64,000 nt of DNA from Prosthecobacter gellanilyticus. GTDB taxonomy: Bacteria > Verrucomicrobiota > Verrucomicrobiia > Verrucomicrobiales > Verrucomicrobiaceae. Both the position numbers and the translations under genes were made by a program. Where the stretch lies: positions 1-64,000 of the forward strand of contig NZ_BKAG01000019.1 of the NCBI RefSeq assembly GCF_007992435.1, given 5' to 3'. Shown here piece by piece: positions 30,220-37,987 of the stretch. How positions within the stretch are numbered: the first letter of the stretch is position 1; the number at the start of each line of letters is the position of its first letter. Under the pieces are notes generated by a model. That model saw only the letters and a program-made list of their open reading frames with translations, made no database searches and was not told the origin of the DNA.

Positions 30220-31704
30220 ATGTCCGATATCTCCCCGACTGCCGATTTCCCAACCGCTGAAGAGCTCGGCTCGGCACTGCCGCAGTATGAGATCGAGGAG
30301 CGCATCAGCGTGGGCGAGGAAAGCGCCATCTACCTCGCGCGCCAGCCTGCGCTGGACCGCGCTGTGATGATCCGCGTGATGGCGGAGCCCTCCATGGGGG
30401 CCGCCGGCCGCCTGATGGAGCGTCTGCGCGCCCGGGCCCGCATCGTGCATCCGCGCATCGTGGCCGTGTATGACTTTGGCCGCGCCATCTCCGGCCATCT
30501 GTATCTCGTCACCGAGCATGTGGACGGCCGGGTGCTCTCCGACCTCATCCAGGAGCGCCAGGTGCCGCCGAAGCTGGGCTACAGCTACGCCCTGCAGGTC
30601 TGCGACATCCTCTCCATGCTGCATGAGCAGGGACTGAAGCATGGCGCGCTGAACTCGCGCACGGTGCTGGTCGATGAAGAAGGCCAGCTCAAGATCACCG
30701 GCGTGGGCATGAGCATCACGCCCAGCGGCGAAATCTCCTGGCTGCATGAAAGCGAGGCCTCCATCACCGGAGATCTCACCGATCTCGGCGCCCTGCTGCA
30801 TGAGATGTTTGGCCGCGAGCCTCTGCCTGAGGATGGCCGTGTCTCACGCAATCTCCCGCCTGCCTTCGGGGCAGTGATCCGCCGCTGTGTGCAGCTGGAG
30901 ACCACACGCCGCTACACCAGCGCGGCTGAAGTCCGCGAGGCTCTGGTGCAGGCGCTGAAAACGCAGCAGCAAGGGGCCTCCACCAAGTCCGCTGGCACAC
31001 CCGCCGCCGATCCGCCTTCAGCACACGCAGCCAGGCCAGCCCCGGCACCTGCCCCCGCGCGGGCATCACGCCCGGCGCCCGTCTCTGCCCCCGCCGCGCC
31101 TCCACCGGTCTCGCACTCGCACGAACCTGCGGTGCCTGCCACCCACGCCCCTCCGCGCTATGCGCCCGGACGTCCGCCGCCTCCGGTCGTGCGCCCGCAG
31201 CCCTCCTTCATGAAGAAGCTGGATGACTTTCTGTGGGCCTGCCTGCGTGCCAGCCTGCATCTCTCCATCTTCCTCGTGGCCGCTGTGGTCATGCTCATCT
31301 TCTACGTGATGAAGGACAAGATCGTGCTCAAGGATCCGAACGATCCTGATTCCGCACGCGAAGAAGCCGCGATGCCGGGGCAGATGCTCGGCAAGCTTCC
31401 CGAAGCTCCGCAGCTTCCGCAAGCACCCGTCACCGCGCCATCGTCACCCATCACCCTGCCGCCACCCGCACCCGCCGCGGATCCCCTCGCAGCGCTGAAA
31501 GCCGAGTATCGTAACGCGGTGCAGAGCGAAGCTACTGCCGCGCTCGACAAAGTGCGTCTCAACGAGCTGCCCTTCTTCCAAAAAGAACTGCAACGCCTGC
31601 AAAATGGCGAATCAGTGCCTGACACGGACGAGCCGAATCTGCCAGCCGCACTCAAGCGCCTGCGTGACGACTATCGCAGCAAGAAAGCAGCTCTTGGAAA
31701 GTAG
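30220..31704 (+). CDS. Membrane-anchored Ser/Thr pseudokinase
   Basis: 494 aa. Residues 22-245 have the Hanks-kinase fold order (YEIEERISVGEESAIYLARQ, YLVTEHVDGRVLSDLI, LHEQGLKHGALNSRTVLV, DLTDLGALLHEMFG), but the catalytic residues are gone: the glycine loop is degenerate, the ATP Lys is Arg52, the catalytic Asp of HRD is Ala143 (HGALN), the Asn is Thr148, and DFG reads GVG (161-163). A Pro/Ala-rich linker (255-328), one transmembrane helix (about 346-364) and a 125-residue C-terminal tail with an Ala/Pro linker and a helical end follow. It should not phosphorylate; a binding or scaffold role is likely (inference). Confidence 0.85.
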   Translation: MSDISPTADFPTAEELGSALPQYEIEERISVGEESAIYLARQPALDRAVMIRVMAEPSMGAAGRLMERLRARARIVHPRIVAVYDFGRAISGHLYLVTEHVDGRVLSDLIQERQVPPKLGYSYALQVCDILSMLHEQGLKHGALNSRTVLVDEEGQLKITGVGMSITPSGEISWLHESEASITGDLTDLGALLHEMFGREPLPEDGRVSRNLPPAFGAVIRRCVQLETTRRYTSAAEVREALVQALKTQQQGASTKSAGTPAADPPSAHAARPAPAPAPARASRPAPVSAPAAPPPVSHSHEPAVPATHAPPRYAPGRPPPPVVRPQPSFMKKLDDFLWACLRASLHLSIFLVAAVVMLIFYVMKDKIVLKDPNDPDSAREEAAMPGQMLGKLPEAPQLPQAPVTAPSSPITLPPPAPAADPLAALKAEYRNAVQSEATAALDKVRLNELPFFQKELQRLQNGESVPDTDEPNLPAALKRLRDDYRSKKAALGK

Positions 31705-31774
31705 TCTCAAGTGCATCGTGCACTCGTGAACATCATCGCCGAATTTGACAAAGTTGGTTACCCGTGCGTGACTA

Positions 31775-31935
31775 CCCGTGCAGCCGAAGCTGGTGCTCCT
31801 TCCTGAGCGCTGGCACGGGGGAACCAACTTCCTGAAGAATCGCAAGAGCCTTCAGGATGGGGCGCACAAGGGTGGGCAACCACCTGAGGGGTCACTTCCA
31901 AGACCTAGCCCGTCAGCTAACCTCGCAGGCCGATT
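31775..31935 (+). ncRNA. ydaO-type cyclic di-AMP riboswitch aptamer
   Basis: The leader of the zinc-ribbon/PH/SPFH genes contains the conserved ydaO aptamer blocks in order: GCCGAAGC (31783-31790), GCACGGGGGAACCAAC (31813-31828), a GGGGCGCA block (31859-31866) and the highly conserved 3' block AGCCCGTCAGCTAACCTCGC (31908-31927), ending AGGC, which can pair with the 5' GCC. Compared from memory with the Thermoanaerobacter and actinobacterial aptamers, spacing and order agree. In known cases cyclic di-AMP binding lowers expression of downstream genes. Aptamer edges are approximate. Confidence 0.85.
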
Positions 31936-32052
31936 TGGGAGGGCAATCCTCTGCCCGGTGCCTGTGCATCGGGACCATGGTTTCCCCACATAGACCTGCT
32001 TTTTCGCAGGACGGGAGACCGTCTGGCAAAAAGCCGCCAAGAGACCATATCC
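31936..32052 (+). promoter_or_regulatory. Likely expression platform of the cyclic di-AMP riboswitch
   Basis: The 117 bases between aptamer and ATG hold several hairpins: CCCGGTGC-CTGT-GCATCGGG (31954-31973, one G-T pair), CCTGC-TTTTTC-GCAGG (31995-32010) and GACGG-GAGA-CCGTC (32010-32023). None is followed by a clear T run, so control might be at translation or through a non-classical terminator. The 70 bases from the kinase stop (31704) to the aptamer hold a small GTGCA-TCG-TGCAC hairpin and presumably the promoter. Confidence 0.5.
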
Positions 32053-32310
32053 ATGAACCTGACCGCGATCCGCGGCTGCCATCCACGCAGCCTGACGGAA
32101 CCTCCTGCGCCTGTGACCTGCCGCGAGTGCGGCGTGCCGATGACACGTGGCTGCCTGCTGCAAAACAACGTCTGGGTCAGCCCCACGCCGATGGACCAGA
32201 CCATCCTGCGCCAGCTCAATGCCTGGATCTTTGGTGTGAGGCGCGAAGCCCGCAAAGTCAGCGCCTGGCGCTGCCCTCAGTGCCAGCGGCTCGAGTTCAT
32301 CACCAAATGA
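32053..32310 (+). CDS. Small zinc-ribbon protein under the riboswitch
   Basis: 85 aa, function unknown. Two CxxC knuckles, CRECG at 24-28 and CPQC at 75-78, separated by about 47 residues with a helical segment (TPMDQTILRQLNAWIFGVRREA), would form one split zinc ribbon. It is the first gene after the cyclic di-AMP riboswitch, and its TGA overlaps an ATG of the next gene frame (32307-32310), so the two are translated together. A nucleic-acid or protein-binding adaptor is possible; nothing in the sequence proves it. Confidence 0.72.
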   Translation: MNLTAIRGCHPRSLTEPPAPVTCRECGVPMTRGCLLQNNVWVSPTPMDQTILRQLNAWIFGVRREARKVSAWRCPQCQRLEFITK

Positions 32311-32321
32311 GGATCACCTTC

Positions 32322-32828
32322 ATGAAACAACATTTCAAAGCGCCCTGGGGCACAGGGCTGAAGTGGATCTCCCTTTTCTCCACCTTGTTTCTCGGACCGA
32401 TGTGTCTGGCCGCTCTCGCAATAGCCTACGTCAACGCGTCATCCTTGCTGGCTCTCCTCATCTGCCTTGTTCCCTGGCTCATCGTTGTTCCAGCGGCGTG
32501 CTATGCTGTCCGTGGTTATACTCTGGATGCAAACATCCTGCGCATTCATCGTCTGCTCTGGGACACCGTAATCCCCATCAGCGGCTTGAAGTACGCATTG
32601 ACGATGCCCGAAGCCATGAGCGGCAGCATCCGCATATATGGAAACGGCGGTTTTTATTCCATCACCGGACATTACTGGAACAGGCGTCTCGGGCACTACC
32701 GTGCCTATGTGAATGACTGGAAACGGCCAGTGGTGCTGATCTTCCATGAGAGAAACACCATTGTGCTCTCCCCCGACGATCCCGAGGACTTCGTCGAAGC
32801 CGTGAAGGCCGCGGTCACTCCGCCATAG
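32322..32828 (+). CDS. Membrane protein with bacterial PH-like domain
   Basis: 168 aa. Two hydrophobic segments at about 14-34 and 37-58 (WISLFSTLFLGPMCLAALAIAYV; LLALLICLVPWLIVVPAACYA) are followed by a bacterial pleckstrin-homology-like domain: YTLDANILRIHRLLWDTVIPISGLKYAL, a central beta region, and VVLIFHERNTIVLSPDDPEDFVEAVKAA, the ending typical of bPH_5-like domains. GAGG 8-9 bases before the ATG at 32322 is a fair Shine-Dalgarno; ATG 32307, five codons earlier and overlapping the zinc-ribbon stop, is the alternative. Function unknown; such domains often occur in membrane stress proteins. Confidence 0.75.
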   Translation: MKQHFKAPWGTGLKWISLFSTLFLGPMCLAALAIAYVNASSLLALLICLVPWLIVVPAACYAVRGYTLDANILRIHRLLWDTVIPISGLKYALTMPEAMSGSIRIYGNGGFYSITGHYWNRRLGHYRAYVNDWKRPVVLIFHERNTIVLSPDDPEDFVEAVKAAVTPP

Positions 32829-32946
32829 AGCAGGCCGACATCCAATACAACATCCTGTTAGGCCAGTATCACAACGGCCCTCTGGATATCCATGTCTCCA
32901 TCACTCCACCACTCCCTTTCTCCAAACATTCCCCCTTCTCTTCTCT

Positions 32947-34752
32947 ATGAAAACTCTTCTCGATCTCGCGCTCACCTACTGGTGGGCCACCCTCATTATC
33001 TTGTTCATCATCACCATCAATGTCCTCGGCATCGTCCATATCAACGAGCAGCAGGTCGGCCTCATCATCAAACGTTTCGCCCGTAACAGCCTGCCTCCGG
33101 GCGAGATCATCGCCCTGAATGGAGAGGCCGGCTTCCAGGCGGACACACTTCCACCAGGGCTGTATTTCGGTTACTGGATCTGGCAGTATCAGGTGCAAAA
33201 GGTGCCCATCCTTGTGGTGCCTCAGGGAGAGCTGGCCCTCATCGTCGCACGCACAGGCGCTGCCATCCCACCGCAGCGCATTCTGGGTCGTGTGGTCGCC
33301 TGTGATCACTTCCAGGACGCCCGTGCCTTCCTGAAAAACAGCGGCGAGAAAGGCCGTCAGCTCGGCGTGCTCACCGCAGGCTCTTACCGCATCAATCCAG
33401 CCCTGTTCAATGTCATCACCACACGCACGTCGCATGAGCACGGCGTGGCTCCGGGCTGCCTGCGCCTTTTGCATGTGGAGCCCGACCGCGTCGGCATCGT
33501 CACCACGCTGGACGGTCTGCCCATCGAGCAGGGAGAAATGGCCGGCCCCATCGTGGCAGGTCACAACAACTTCCAGGACGCACAGAGCTTCCTCAATGCG
33601 GGCGGCAGCCGTGGCCTGCAGGAGCAGATCCTGCTCAGCGGTCAGTGGAACATCAACCCCTGGTTCGCGAGTGTGGAGCAGGTGGAGATGATCGAGATCC
33701 CCATCGGTCATGTCGGCGTCGTCATCTCCTATGTCGGCAAGGCGCATGAGGACGTCAGCGGCCCTGACTTCAAGCATGGTGACCTTGTAGAAGTCGGCCA
33801 CAAAGGTGTGTGGGTGAAGCCGCTGCTGCCCGGCAAGCACCCCATCAACACGCACATCATGCGTGTCGAACTTGTGCCCACGACGAACATCGTGCTGAAC
33901 TGGGCGAACCGCACCGAGGCGCATCGCTTCGATGAAAAACTCAGCTCCATCACCGTGCGCTCGCGGGATGGCTTCGCCTTTAATCTCGATGTCTCCCAGA
34001 TCATCCACATCGGTGCCAATGAAGCTCCAAAGGTCATCTCGCGTGCGGGTTCCTTGCAGAACCTCATCGACCACGTCCTGCAACCCATCGTCGGCAACTA
34101 CTTCCGCAACAGCGCGCAGGACTACACCGTGCTGGATTTCCTCAGTGCGCGCAGTGACCGCCAGTCGGAAGCCGCCAGCCATATCAGCACCGCCTTGCGC
34201 GAGTATGATGTGGAAGCTATCGACACTCTCATTGGCGACATCACACCACCCGAGTCCCTGATGAAAACACAGACGGATCGCAAGCTCGCCGAGGAGCAGC
34301 GCAAGACCTATGAGATTCAGGAGGCTGCGGAAAAGCAGCGCCAGCAACTCGTGCGCCAGACCTCGCTCGCAGACATCCAGCATGAGATGGTGAAGTCTGA
34401 GCAGGGCGTGCAGATCGCCCAGCTTCAGGCCAGTGCCGCCGTGAAGAAAAGCGAGGGCGAGGCCACCAGTACCCGCCTGCGCGCCTCAGGCGATGCTGAT
34501 GCCATCCGCGCCACCGGCCAGGCGAAAGCTGAGGCTCACAGCGCTGGCATCCAGGCCGTGGGTCAGGACACTTACTCGCTCATGCAGCTCTTCCAGATCA
34601 TCGCGGAGAAGAACCTCCGCGTCGTCCCAGACGTGCTGGTGAACGGCGGCGGCCTCAATGGCAATGCCTCAGGCCTCATCGAGGCCCTCATGGCCATGAC
34701 CGCCCGCAACAGCGGCCCGCGAGTGACCGTCCCGGTCAGTCCGGTGAACTAA
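32947..34752 (+). CDS. SPFH/flotillin-like membrane protein with N-terminal repeats
   Basis: 601 aa. One N-terminal transmembrane segment (about 10-29) precedes an SPFH/Band-7 region. Before the core (about 275-430; NRTEAHRFDEKLSSITVRSRDGFAFNLDVSQIIHI) two clear tandem repeats of about 95 residues share FQDA..FL, G..G.Q and INP motifs (about 90-155 and 180-255), with a shorter third copy after them. The C-terminal helical region (430-570) is rich in Ala, Glu and Gln with EAEA-like heptads (TDRKLAEEQRKTYEIQEAAEKQRQQ), as in flotillins. Probably a membrane-domain scaffold oligomer. It starts 118 bases after the PH gene and may belong to the riboswitch-led unit. Confidence 0.88.
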   Translation: MKTLLDLALTYWWATLIILFIITINVLGIVHINEQQVGLIIKRFARNSLPPGEIIALNGEAGFQADTLPPGLYFGYWIWQYQVQKVPILVVPQGELALIVARTGAAIPPQRILGRVVACDHFQDARAFLKNSGEKGRQLGVLTAGSYRINPALFNVITTRTSHEHGVAPGCLRLLHVEPDRVGIVTTLDGLPIEQGEMAGPIVAGHNNFQDAQSFLNAGGSRGLQEQILLSGQWNINPWFASVEQVEMIEIPIGHVGVVISYVGKAHEDVSGPDFKHGDLVEVGHKGVWVKPLLPGKHPINTHIMRVELVPTTNIVLNWANRTEAHRFDEKLSSITVRSRDGFAFNLDVSQIIHIGANEAPKVISRAGSLQNLIDHVLQPIVGNYFRNSAQDYTVLDFLSARSDRQSEAASHISTALREYDVEAIDTLIGDITPPESLMKTQTDRKLAEEQRKTYEIQEAAEKQRQQLVRQTSLADIQHEMVKSEQGVQIAQLQASAAVKKSEGEATSTRLRASGDADAIRATGQAKAEAHSAGIQAVGQDTYSLMQLFQIIAEKNLRVVPDVLVNGGGLNGNASGLIEALMAMTARNSGPRVTVPVSPVN

Positions 34753-34766
34753 AGTTAGTTGGGCAG

Positions 34767-34791
34767 AGCCAGCGGCAACAAGCCGCTGGCT
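34767..34791. terminator. Bidirectional hairpin overlapping a stop codon
   Basis: AGCCAGCGGC-AACAA-GCCGCTGGCT is a perfect 10-bp stem with a 5-base loop, 14 bases after the SPFH stop. Its distal edge covers two bases of the TAG stop of the convergent PVC gene (34790-34792). No long T run. Confidence 0.75.
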
Positions 34792-37700
34792 ACTTCCCGA
34801 GCAAGTAGCCGAGCAAATCCTGAAACGACGCCTCATCGATCGTCTGACCAAACACCGGCGGCATGAGAGACATGGGCATCACGTCACTCTTCTCCACATC
34901 CTTCTTGGTGACGCGATGCTCCTTGCCCGCAGCATCCACGAGGATGTTCACCTGCCCGGCCTCGGCTTTCAGGAAGCCACTGAACACCGCGCCGTCCTTC
35001 AGCGTGAAGGTGTGAACATGAAAGTGCGCATCCACATTGCGGTTCGGATCCAGGATGTCCTCGCTCAAGCGTGCCACGCCACGTGTGCCAATGCCATCCA
35101 GCTGCGGCCCGATGAGTCCGCCCTCACCGCCAATACGATGGCACACCGCACAGTTGGTTTGGAAAACCTGTTTTCCTTTGGCGACATCTGGCTTGGCCTT
35201 CGCAAAAGCCTCCACACGAGAGGTGATCAGCGTATCGATCTGCTTCCGCTGCTCGGGTGAGATCGGCAGTGGCGGCGGTGCTGGTCGCGGAGGCAGGTAA
35301 GCGGCCAGTTTTTCCCGCAACGCCGCGGGAGCACTGTGCTGAAGAATGACTGCGATCTTCTTCAAACCTTCCCGCACGGTGTCCTCCGTCTGAAAATCAT
35401 CCACACTCACCACCGCTGGCTCAATGCGTGTGATGCCCAGCCAGGCATAAGCCTTGCCATCATCTCCATCCACGATCTCCAGCCGCACCTGCTTGCCTGC
35501 ATGCTTCGCCAGATCCATTTTCATGCGCTGGCAGACATCATTCTTCGGCGGGAACACACTCGCGAGCACCTCACCAGAGGTCGCATCCACCACACGCACC
35601 AGGTTCTTGTCGTGAACCTCTCCTTTCGGAAAACCGCGATGCCCGTTCACCCAAAGTGATAATTGGTTCGGCGCTACAAACTCCTTGGATTTCAAGATGC
35701 CCACACGACTCTCCTCATCTCCACCGCCCCCGCTCATGCTCTGCAGCACCTGCGCCTCCTTGCCATCGGAGCACTTGCGGCTTTTGAGAGCCCATATGGG
35801 GGCCTTTGACGAAGCGACAGATGTCCAGGAAGGCTGAGGCTTCTTGGTTAGATCCACGAGCATTGCCTCCGCCAGTTCTTGTGCCCAGGAGTGGAGCTCT
35901 TGAGGCACAGGCGCACCTCGCTCGCTAAGGCCATCGGAAATGGCTTGAATGGATTCGGTTGAATTCGTTTTTTGGGACTTCACCAACTGAATCAGCGGCA
36001 CGATCAACGCGCTATCGCCATAACGTGCGATGTGACTGATCGCGCGGCCGACCTGGTCATCGCGGTTCATCCTGGGAAGGCGATCAAACAAATACTTCGC
36101 AGCTTCGGGGTTCCGCGTGCTGGTGATCACCTCAAACATCGTCCGCTTCAGCGGCTGCGGGATCAGCCCGTCTGAAAGCTCACGCATGCCTCCGGCCTCC
36201 AGGCAGTTACGAAGCGCGACCAGAAGAGAATGCTTCAAAGATACATCCGAGGCAGGGCAACGATGAAGATGGTCAATCAGCGGCGAGACAAACTCTGATG
36301 ATGGATGCGCCGTGACGGCATCTGCCAGGGCGTGGATGGTAAGCGTTTGATCCGTCGGGCACTCAAAAGCCGTGAAGACCATGGCATCTTTTGTTTCCGG
36401 TCTCCATGGGCCAAGCGCAGCAGCGATGCGGAGGGCAAGAAGGCGCAGATGGATCACTCTCTGACTCAACACGTTTACTACATCCGACTCGAGATGTGAG
36501 TTAGGCTGACCTGGAGATGGTCTCAGGCTCAACCACGCATGAGGTTCTGCGTGACGTTCATCAGGTGGAGGCTCCCCGACACCGCACATGGAAAAGTTTT
36601 TTTCGGCCCTCAGTTTCGGATCCTGCGCAAACGCCTCAATCGCCAGTCTTCGCTGTGCAGGCGTGCCCTTTTCCATGAGCTTGACGATGCCCTTGGCCTC
36701 ACGCGTCACATGACTCCACATCTCCAGGCTGGAGGTGGAGCCTTCCTTCACCACCCGCCAGATCCTGCCGCGCTCCTTATCCCTGCCCGGGTGCTCCAGC
36801 GACACCTCATAGTGGCCAATGATGCGGTTATAAAAGTCAGCGATGTAGAGCGCATTGTCGGGACCTAGTTGAAGATCCACCGGGCGGAACCAAGGATCAT
36901 CACTGGTGATGAAATCAGGCCTCTCATTCGCCTTCGGCGTGCTGCCGCTGAAGGTGACGAGGTCACGATTCACCTTTGAGGTCACCGGGTTGCCGACGAG
37001 CATGTGGTCATCCCACTCGGCGCCCCACACGCCACCATCGAGGTAAACGATGCCGCAGATACCCGTGCTGCCATGCGTGTGCTCACACATCACCGGCGCG
37101 AAGCCAAGACCGTCATGCGGCTTGCCAAAGCTCGGATAGTGCGCGCCACGGATCAGTTGGTAGATGGGAGAGCTGTGGCAGTCCGCGCTGTAAAGATTCC
37201 CATAGCGATCCCAGCACAGGCCAAACGGATTCACCTGACCATGGGTCCATCGTTCGACAGTGGAGCCATCGGGCTTGAAGCGAAACACATTCCCGCTGTG
37301 AAGCTCGAGTGAGCTGCCATCCTTCGCCTTAAACTTGCTGGTGTTGTTAAACCCATGCGTCGCATACACCCAGCCATCCAGACCCAGGCGGAAGCTGCTG
37401 CACATGCCGTGGGTGTCTTTCTCATAACCCAACGGGCCGAACAAAATTTGCCGAATGTCCGCTTTGTCATCGCCATCCGTATCCGCGAAATACCAGATGT
37501 TCGGGATGCTCCAGGCAATGCAGCCTGCCTTGTGCTCCGGCTTGTGCCAGGGCACCACACCGGTGGGAATGTTTAAGCCATCAGCAAAGTCGATCACCTT
37601 GTCCGCTTTGCCGTCGCCATCCGTGTCTTCGAGGATCTTGATGGCGTCGCGGCTGCCTTTGACTCGCGTGCCCTCGGCATCCGACCAGCGGCTTTTGTCC

Positions 37701-37951
37701 GCGCTGTAAGGATACTCCACCGTCGAGCTGACCCAGAGCCTGCCACGAGCATCGAAAGCCATGTTGATCGGCTTGTTGATCATCGGCTCGCTGGCAAAGA
37801 GCTGCACCTCAAAGCCCGGTGGCACATGCAGCGCGGCGCGTTCCTGCTCCGCAGTCAGAGGCTCTGTCTCGCGGACAAGGCGGTCTTTGCTCTCGGCGGC
37901 AGAGAGAAAGGCGGACAGCATCAAAGGGAGCAGCGGGAGATAAGAGCGCAT
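34790..37951 (-). CDS. PVC-type secreted dehydrogenase with c-type heme (second copy)
   Basis: 1053 aa; same family as the gene at 10183 but only distantly similar in the middle. N-terminal dehydrogenase-like domain (about 40-400; VPPGFEVQLFASEPMINKPINMAFDARGRLWVSSTVEYPY, ILEDTDGDGKADKVIDFADGLNIPTG), helical HEAT-like region (about 410-680), a beta domain with NPCBM-like look (about 730-860; VAPNQLSLWVNGHRGFPKGEVHDKNLVRVVDATSGEV) and a C-terminal cytochrome domain with heme motif CAVCH at 934-938. The frame's first codon is a TTG; ATG 37951 gives signal peptide MRSYLPLLPLMLSAFLSAAE. Probably a periplasmic oxidase/dehydrogenase of a carbohydrate. Confidence 0.9.
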   Translation of the reverse strand: MRSYLPLLPLMLSAFLSAAESKDRLVRETEPLTAEQERAALHVPPGFEVQLFASEPMINKPINMAFDARGRLWVSSTVEYPYSADKSRWSDAEGTRVKGSRDAIKILEDTDGDGKADKVIDFADGLNIPTGVVPWHKPEHKAGCIAWSIPNIWYFADTDGDDKADIRQILFGPLGYEKDTHGMCSSFRLGLDGWVYATHGFNNTSKFKAKDGSSLELHSGNVFRFKPDGSTVERWTHGQVNPFGLCWDRYGNLYSADCHSSPIYQLIRGAHYPSFGKPHDGLGFAPVMCEHTHGSTGICGIVYLDGGVWGAEWDDHMLVGNPVTSKVNRDLVTFSGSTPKANERPDFITSDDPWFRPVDLQLGPDNALYIADFYNRIIGHYEVSLEHPGRDKERGRIWRVVKEGSTSSLEMWSHVTREAKGIVKLMEKGTPAQRRLAIEAFAQDPKLRAEKNFSMCGVGEPPPDERHAEPHAWLSLRPSPGQPNSHLESDVVNVLSQRVIHLRLLALRIAAALGPWRPETKDAMVFTAFECPTDQTLTIHALADAVTAHPSSEFVSPLIDHLHRCPASDVSLKHSLLVALRNCLEAGGMRELSDGLIPQPLKRTMFEVITSTRNPEAAKYLFDRLPRMNRDDQVGRAISHIARYGDSALIVPLIQLVKSQKTNSTESIQAISDGLSERGAPVPQELHSWAQELAEAMLVDLTKKPQPSWTSVASSKAPIWALKSRKCSDGKEAQVLQSMSGGGGDEESRVGILKSKEFVAPNQLSLWVNGHRGFPKGEVHDKNLVRVVDATSGEVLASVFPPKNDVCQRMKMDLAKHAGKQVRLEIVDGDDGKAYAWLGITRIEPAVVSVDDFQTEDTVREGLKKIAVILQHSAPAALREKLAAYLPPRPAPPPLPISPEQRKQIDTLITSRVEAFAKAKPDVAKGKQVFQTNCAVCHRIGGEGGLIGPQLDGIGTRGVARLSEDILDPNRNVDAHFHVHTFTLKDGAVFSGFLKAEAGQVNILVDAAGKEHRVTKKDVEKSDVMPMSLMPPVFGQTIDEASFQDLLGYLLGK

Positions 37952-37987
37952 GAGAAAGGTCAAGGCTGGTCAAAAGGAGTCAAGAGG

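Follow-up and report, generated by a model that had tools for sequence, protein, structure and literature searches.

Cyclic di-AMP (c-di-AMP) is known mostly from Firmicutes and Actinobacteria, and its biology there runs mostly through ion and osmolyte transport. For the riboswitches of the ydaO/yuaA family, the targets named in the excerpts of PMC6488665, PMC3766115 and PMC9337991 are K+ and other transporters, an osmolyte gene and cell-wall enzymes, with no SPFH gene among them, and the excerpt of PMC6488665 reports a prediction that such riboswitches stand before K+ transporters in Verrucomicrobia. Here we describe an aptamer of this class in a 64,000-nucleotide stretch of Prosthecobacter gellanilyticus DNA (the window), where it precedes a gene for a membrane-anchored SPFH protein. 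The reading we prefer, with a probability of about 0.65, is that of a functional c-di-AMP riboswitch with the SPFH gene as its target, which would act as an OFF switch, mainly on translation, and would control a membrane cage linked to K+ and turgor. The nearest named relatives of the host lie in the Verrucomicrobiaceae, as befits the Gram-negative PVC host supposed in the original prediction, which had been made from the letters of the window.

The aptamer and the gene behind it

The aptamer occupies positions 31772-31946 of the plus strand (RF00379, 50.7 bits, E = 8.1e-9). The Rfam match spans all 134 model positions and exceeds the gathering score of 38, so that the ydaO assignment of the original prediction holds over the full length; the sequence block singled out there lies at 31907-31926. 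No second Rfam family passed its gathering threshold in the window, and the window aptamer is the one RF00379 match found across the 7.65 Mb genome. A chance match was considered and rejected, given the score above the cut-off, the single occurrence in the genome and the recurrence in related genomes. Judged by its sequence, the window aptamer is a genuine member of the c-di-AMP riboswitch class, and it presumably responds to this ligand. A cyclase of the DisA or CdaA type, which the original prediction had proposed to look for, is present: the genome encodes one DAC protein, of the CdaA type (CdaA_N and DAC domains).

The order was sampled with 288 genomes, 40 of which have an RF00379 match at E ≤ 0.001 (39 of the 40 over the cut-off). 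We compared the DNA downstream of the aptamer in 39 aptamer genomes, with the window as the 40th, and called genes by their similarity to the window proteins. An SPFH gene lies 3' of the aptamer in 34 of the 40, a zinc-ribbon gene in 13 and a PH gene in 12. With these counts, the zinc-ribbon, PH and SPFH trio was rejected as a conserved unit, and of the gene order that had been expected to recur only the SPFH part does. On this comparative evidence the conserved target of the riboswitch in Verrucomicrobiota is the SPFH gene, and the zinc-ribbon and PH genes share its leader here. Among the genomes with no SPFH gene at the aptamer, the contigs of G179 and G165 end within 90 bases of it, and G151 has a PH gene at the aptamer and no SPFH gene. 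Two further genomes, G146 (locus L034) and G157 (L065), have kept the aptamer, and no SPFH gene was found there; an open reading frame (ORF) of G157 contains, by eye, a stretch like the SPFH N-terminus, which suggests a deletion.

When SPFH relatives at E ≤ 1e-40 were tallied against aptamers in the 288 genomes, 37 had both, 3 the aptamer only, 4 the SPFH relative only and 244 neither, counts that reflect the shared history of related genomes and not independent events. Behind the aptamer, two types of SPFH protein occur, which share about 39% identity. At eight loci of more distant SPFH relatives within the order (L101-L108), RF00379 was absent at E values up to 5; six of these proteins are 52-56% identical to that of the window.

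A wider scan of 84,980 species genomes returned at least 576 SPFH relatives, and the best 80 of these were analysed. Many come from records titled Verrucomicrobia, Opitutae or Pedosphaera, and some from Chloroflexi, Cyanobacteria or other groups. Of these best 80, 64 have the aptamer core motif 5' of the SPFH gene and on its strand. For 73 of the 80 loci, the genome of origin was searched with RF00379; the motif fell inside a same-strand match at all 57 motif loci scanned in this way, and RF00379 added one locus, L167. The remaining seven are contigs already matched in the order sample (G212, G049, G105, G084, G125, G136 and G162), which brings the loci with a same-strand upstream aptamer to 65 of the best 80; 14 of the 65 (L110-L122 and L178) also belong to the order sample. 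The position of the leader before a conserved gene is therefore held across species, in 34 of the 40 order genomes and in 65 of the best 80 loci. The idea that the switch is universal among SPFH relatives was rejected, since none was seen at 15 of the best 80 loci, nor at L101-L108. By title, 12 of the 15 are Chloroflexi/Anaerolineae or Cyanobacteria, and three aptamer-less loci (L128, L165 and L188) have less than 1.1 kb of upstream sequence.

At L148 the aptamer lies 1.7 kb upstream of the SPFH gene, with a second Band_7 gene between them (L230 is the same SPFH locus). Another Band_7 protein, about 500 residues long, is likewise seen behind the aptamer at L221:284-1807 and on the minus strand of L230 at about 976-2448. 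A record titled Akkermansia muciniphila (L115) encodes an SPFH protein 77% identical to that of the window and identical to that of G122, which belongs to the genus of the window; this assembly is likely mislabelled.

Aptamers at potassium genes

Further aptamer loci were typed in 29 cases, made up of 28 of the 38 non-SPFH matches together with the aptamer of G242; ten cyanobacterial matches and G655:C29 were left out. Pfam was run on seven representatives. Sixteen of the 29 aptamers stand before a Kup-type gene, nine before members of the KimA/APC-type cluster, one before TrkH, two before a second Band_7 gene and one, cyanobacterial, before another gene. We take Kup and KimA to be K+ importers, with Pfam giving K_trans for Kup and AA_permease_2 for the KimA type. 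The APC-Usp proteins at L218 and L222 were counted with KimA/APC by their blastp cluster, and a role in K+ transport is our guess for them.

The same association appears at other scales. Of the 57 genomes whose SPFH gene has an aptamer, 21 carry a further one ahead of a gene of the Kup, KimA/APC or TrkH type. A sample of the phylum gave RF00379 matches in 24 of 387 genomes, and of the 19 aptamers outside the order 15 precede Kup, KimA-type, TrkH or KdpA genes, one an SPFH gene and three other genes. A KimA- or KdpA-type gene also follows the SPFH gene on the same strand, at most 0.7 kb 3' of it, at 7 of the best 80 loci (of at least 576), 58 of which include at least 2.5 kb of downstream sequence. 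TrkH was not found in the window's genome. These genomic links point to K+ and turgor homeostasis as the probable setting of the SPFH gene, in place of the membrane-stress unit that the original prediction had seen in the locus.

Leader, window genes and SPFH protein

The leaders of SPFH genes of the 600-residue type share, after the aptamer, a tail with the pattern GGRAGGGYGAUCC, a variable hairpin, the element GGUCNCYCC and often a GGAG site. The counts that follow are taken from pattern-fitting leaders, with patterns that lean towards the pairing counted; the sets comprise 44 of the 64 relatives for GGAG-ATG, 40 leaders for Shine-Dalgarno (SD) energies, 72 rows (65 distinct, five unmatched) for the tail helix, 57 distinct leaders for the hairpin and 61 (four skipped) for folding. 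For 34 of the 44 GGAG-ATG relatives, 132-152 bases separate core motif and ATG.

The candidate switching strand in the window is the pyrimidine-rich element GGTTTCCCC (31979-31987), which reads GGTCNCYCC in most relatives. Over nine of nine positions it is complementary to the conserved aptamer core GGGGGAACC (31817-31825), and across 54 leaders this complementarity ranges from 5 to 9, as raw values taken without a chance control. RNAalifold, run on 37 relatives, predicts that the aptamer tail GGGCAATC (31941-31948) forms the 5' strand of a post-aptamer helix that we call P8, with the element as its partner; 445 of 455 cells pair in the 65 distinct pattern-picked leaders. The minimum-energy folds of the window itself do not use P8. 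Between tail and element, folding places a hairpin, PE1 (31954-31973), with an 8-bp stem CCCGGTGC/GCATCGGG, and a PE1 stem of at least 7 bp occurs in 21 of the 57 distinct relatives compared to 8.9% of shuffles. When the window leader is folded with the aptamer, the element pairs with the core; when the aptamer is omitted, it pairs with GGGAGACC (32013-32020). All leader folds were computed without pseudoknots or ligand. In such ligand-free folding the window element is split between the core (4.4 expected pairs) and downstream sequence (4.0), and over the 61 leaders it forms on average 2.37 pairs with the core, 1.76 with the tail and 1.82 downstream.

Three genes follow on the plus strand, as the original prediction had described. 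A split zinc-ribbon protein of 85 residues (32053-32310) was recognised by inspection from its CxxC...CxxC pattern, with CREC and CPQC near opposite ends of the protein; it passes no Pfam cut-off, and its DUF6487 score of 18.7 bits stays below the 24 required for that family. Its stop codon overlaps the next start as ATGA at 32307-32310, just as had been noted. The two-helix bacterial PH protein (32307-32828, 173 residues, alternative in-frame start at 32322) belongs to bPH_5 (Pfam PF10882, E = 5e-11, 43 against 22.5 bits). Its hydrophobic helices, at residues 21-39 and 47-65 by hydrophobicity, resemble PspG weakly, at E values of 0.003-0.011 that are below the cut-off, and of the seven proteins at and near the locus that were scanned with Pfam, none is PspA. 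The SPFH gene (32947-34752) begins after a gap of 118 bases; 1.0 kb and two genes separate its ATG from the aptamer. It encodes 601 residues with a Band_7 match of E = 4.2e-27 (95.8 against 23.6 bits), and its assignment as a membrane-anchored SPFH protein with putative vault-like N-terminal β repeats draws on this match, on synteny and on an AlphaFold2 model. The genome has six Band_7 genes, and this one alone sits at the sole aptamer. When 31600-33000 was scanned by consensus (that of E. coli for promoters), neither a sigma-70-like promoter nor a terminator-like site appeared; this is weak evidence for a single transcript, and the separate SPFH promoter that would have told against the original prediction was not seen.

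Short zinc-ribbon frames of the CxxC/CxxC type occur between aptamer and SPFH gene in 14 of 64 relatives, and the remaining 50 gave none. At six loci (L142, L146, L149, L150, L156 and L173) a different small zinc-ribbon, of the type CPECG...CADCG, fills the gap in most cases. Because this type is differently patterned, the gap zinc-ribbon may have been gained more than once. As for the flanks of the window locus, a Ser/Thr protein kinase gene (30220-31704, plus strand) ends 67 bases 5' of the aptamer, and among the other 39 aptamer flanks a relative of it was found in G122 only, on the opposite strand. Immediately after the SPFH gene, a convergent gene (34790-37963, minus strand) encodes a DUF7133/cytochrome c protein of 1057 residues.

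The AlphaFold2 model of the SPFH protein, built with 56 sequences that include viral-contig relatives, has a pLDDT of 84.6 and a pTM of 0.67, and supersedes an earlier narrow-alignment model with a pLDDT of 59.8. It runs from a membrane helix (residues 14-32 by hydrophobicity) through about four β repeats (34-306) and the SPFH domain to a long helix. The top Foldseek matches are major vault proteins (MVPs; E = 1.1e-12), followed by prohibitin (E = 8.6e-11) and erlin (E = 1.0e-10). The protein belongs to the SPFH/Band 7 superfamily, with Band_7 over its cut-off and the SPFH folds of stomatin and prohibitin recovered within residues 246-487. For the 'flotillin-like' label given earlier, the SPFH/Band_7 part is upheld; the flotillin part is not, as no NCBIfam family matched at E ≤ 0.1, Band_7 is the one Pfam match, and the fold is collinear with a vault protein. 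By sequence the protein is not an MVP either, since Band_7 is the only Pfam family at E ≤ 0.1 and no MVP chain in the PDB matches at E ≤ 1. The MVP order of β repeats, shoulder and cap helix is present as a fold match, which is owed in part to the shared SPFH-like shoulder. Because no MVP sequence match was found, what the model indicates is an architecture shared with MVP, with descent not proven. The predicted membrane helix at 14-32 speaks against a free cytosolic particle.

Relatives of the SPFH protein are also encoded at 65 viral-contig loci from IMG/VR (L241-L305), with 34-51% identity over the best segment and most of them nearly full length; five SPFH-bearing viral contigs exceed 400 kb. 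Among 50,697 phage records there was one match, in an uncultured 642 kb phage (LR756502.1:343802-345544), 49.2% identical across residues 1-562. RF00379 was absent from the 20 of the 65 viral loci that were scanned, and an aptamer motif scan of all 65 gave scattered weak matches alone. A DUF805b cis-regulatory RNA stands immediately 5' of the SPFH gene at L241:1159-1198, and a GOLLD RNA 3' of it at L261:5509-5923.

Proposed mechanism, rivals and known systems

We propose that c-di-AMP made by CdaA would be high when K+ and turgor are adequate, and that the aptamer would then be bound and expression lowered; a drop in c-di-AMP, as upon K+ shortage or hyperosmotic shock, would allow the genes to be expressed. 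Control would be chiefly translational. The element GGUCNCYCC could pair with any of three partners, namely the core of the aptamer, its tail, or a site downstream, which is the GGAG ribosome-binding site in relatives and GGGAGACC in the window. Once the core holds ligand, the element would be driven towards the downstream site. The SPFH protein may form a membrane-seated cage from one membrane helix, vault-like repeats, an SPFH ring and a helical cap, which would shelter or organise turgor-related membrane proteins; the likeliest of these are the K+ importers, which bear the same switch in some relatives. The polarity and the level of control are inferred, since the leader folds include neither pseudoknots nor ligand and favour SD masking weakly.

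Several observations tell against this proposal. On the side of the signal, 3 of the 40 aptamer genomes (G162, G028 and G062) gave no DAC match, and DAC is present in 263 of the 288 genomes of the order sample, aptamer or not. As to the target, three aptamer genomes have no SPFH match at all, the aptamer of G242 has a KimA-type permease behind it, and of the 37 genomes with both, four (G165, G179, G242 and G062) have the SPFH match on a different contig, with the start of an SPFH gene seen at the aptamer in G062 only. The K+ link is missing from 36 of the 57 SPFH-aptamer genomes, which have no aptamer at a K+ gene (the G655:C29 match being left out), and the two kup genes and kdpA of the window's genome are not at an aptamer. 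In the leader, the zinc-ribbon start of the window has no GGAG, and both the 690-residue SPFH type and most Kup genes have different leaders. The strands of the tail helix vary too little to reveal covariation: 256 of 2000 permutations reach the observed value. At least four pairs are taken by the element with the core in 20 of the 61 folded leaders, with the tail in 12 and downstream in 14. Masking of the SD site upon blocking of the tail is weakly favoured by the predicted energies, with element:SD pairing rising from 1.36 to 2.55 mean pairs and SD openness falling from 0.32 to 0.26 in the 40 leaders. For the fold, TM-scores of the Foldseek matches to vault chains do not exceed 0.35, and the vault repeats alone (3gng, 3gf5 and 3gnf) reach Z-scores of 8.7-8.8, compared to 8.7-9.4 for unrelated rows.

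The most serious competitor, a tentative possibility, keeps the rest of the proposal and moves control to transcription, by a Rho-dependent or unrecognised terminator. The Dehalobacter example in the excerpt of PMC9337991 is a transcriptional OFF switch with a terminator, and in the window both partners of the element, the core and 32013-32020, are distant from the start codon at 32053, which slightly strengthens this alternative. Against it stand the lack of a terminator-like site in the consensus scan and the 132-152 bases between core motif and ATG in 34 of the 44 GGAG-ATG relatives, a fixed distance to the ribosome-binding site. That c-di-AMP would instead raise SPFH expression is improbable: the sequence does not give the polarity, and the predicted alternative helices permit both directions, but the Dehalobacter switch is OFF, and the related aptamers precede K+ importers, which would be expected to be shut at high c-di-AMP. 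Still less credence is due to a switch that serves mainly the zinc-ribbon gene, while a separate promoter within the 118-base gap drives the SPFH gene. The 1.0 kb and two genes between aptamer and SPFH ATG, and the zinc-ribbon frames at 14 of 64 relatives, would suit it; the other 50 relatives, the SPFH frame that often opens 132-152 bases from the core motif, and the gap itself, where the E. coli consensus finds no promoter-like site, do not.

Two readings differ over what the cage would do. In the bolder one, a c-di-AMP regulon of Verrucomicrobiota, its riboswitch having a conserved leader of its own, would couple turgor to a vault-like membrane cage that encloses or stabilises the K+ importers, and very large phages would have acquired the gene for the cage but not the switch. 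We regard this as unlikely, and its vault-like part is weakened because unrelated rows match as well as the vault repeats do by themselves. We are about equally doubtful that the protein, like YdjI, serves as a scaffold in envelope stress generally, has the zinc-ribbon and PH proteins for partners and bears no particular relation to K+. According to the excerpt of PMC8581546, YdjI of B. subtilis needs two membrane proteins of its own operon; the weak PspG likeness of the PH helices and the 36 SPFH-aptamer genomes with no K+ aptamer would fit such a scaffold. The window SPFH protein, however, carries its own membrane helix, and PH and zinc-ribbon genes are found at 12 and 13 of the 40 order loci, whereas the c-di-AMP switch and the K+ genes recur.

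Should the K+- and turgor-linked riboswitch that we favour be correct, a link between riboswitch and SPFH gene across a Gram-negative phylum would give such SPFH proteins a defined input signal in a K+ and turgor setting, and would tie a vault-like membrane protein to cell turgor. The riboswitch class is known; the SPFH target and its leader are new relative to the open-licence PMC papers searched, in which we found neither described, nor any paper that pairs c-di-AMP with SPFH or a c-di-AMP riboswitch with flotillin. The switch belongs to the same family as the known ydaO/yuaA riboswitches, and copies in relatives precede Kup, KimA-type, TrkH and KdpA genes; it differs from them in its SPFH target and in a distinct conserved leader element with no terminator seen.

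Compared to the pspA-ydjGHI operon of B. subtilis, the locus has in common an SPFH gene beside genes for small membrane proteins. That operon, in the excerpt of PMC8581546, is controlled by sigma-W, and its YdjI is likely soluble and dependent on YdjG and YdjH. With MVP, a VIA-align superposition shows model residues 14-480 to be collinear with MVP 218-692 (PDB code 9bw5; Z = 12.8, 340 residues, r.m.s.d. = 8.8 Å), and other vault chains score Z = 10.2-12.1. The SPFH protein differs in its membrane helix, in having fewer repeats and in the absence of an MVP sequence match, and MVP is described as being without membrane association in the excerpt of PMC12624060, where the purpose of the vault is also called mysterious. 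The vault-like architecture, if confirmed, would offer a bacterial counterpart for the eukaryotic vault and, if the cage reading is true, a membrane-bound one in architectural terms. The membrane SPFH cages (prohibitin, erlin, HflK/C, stomatin and QmcA) have the Band_7 domain in common with the window protein. Prohibitin is the best structural match for residues 246-487 (VIA-align, Z = 16.5, r.m.s.d. = 5.0 Å, 204 residues), and QmcA is the sole PDB sequence match at E < 0.1 (2.2e-6 for the single sequence, 1.2e-8 for the profile). Unlike these cages, the window protein inserts about four predicted β repeats between its membrane helix and its SPFH domain.

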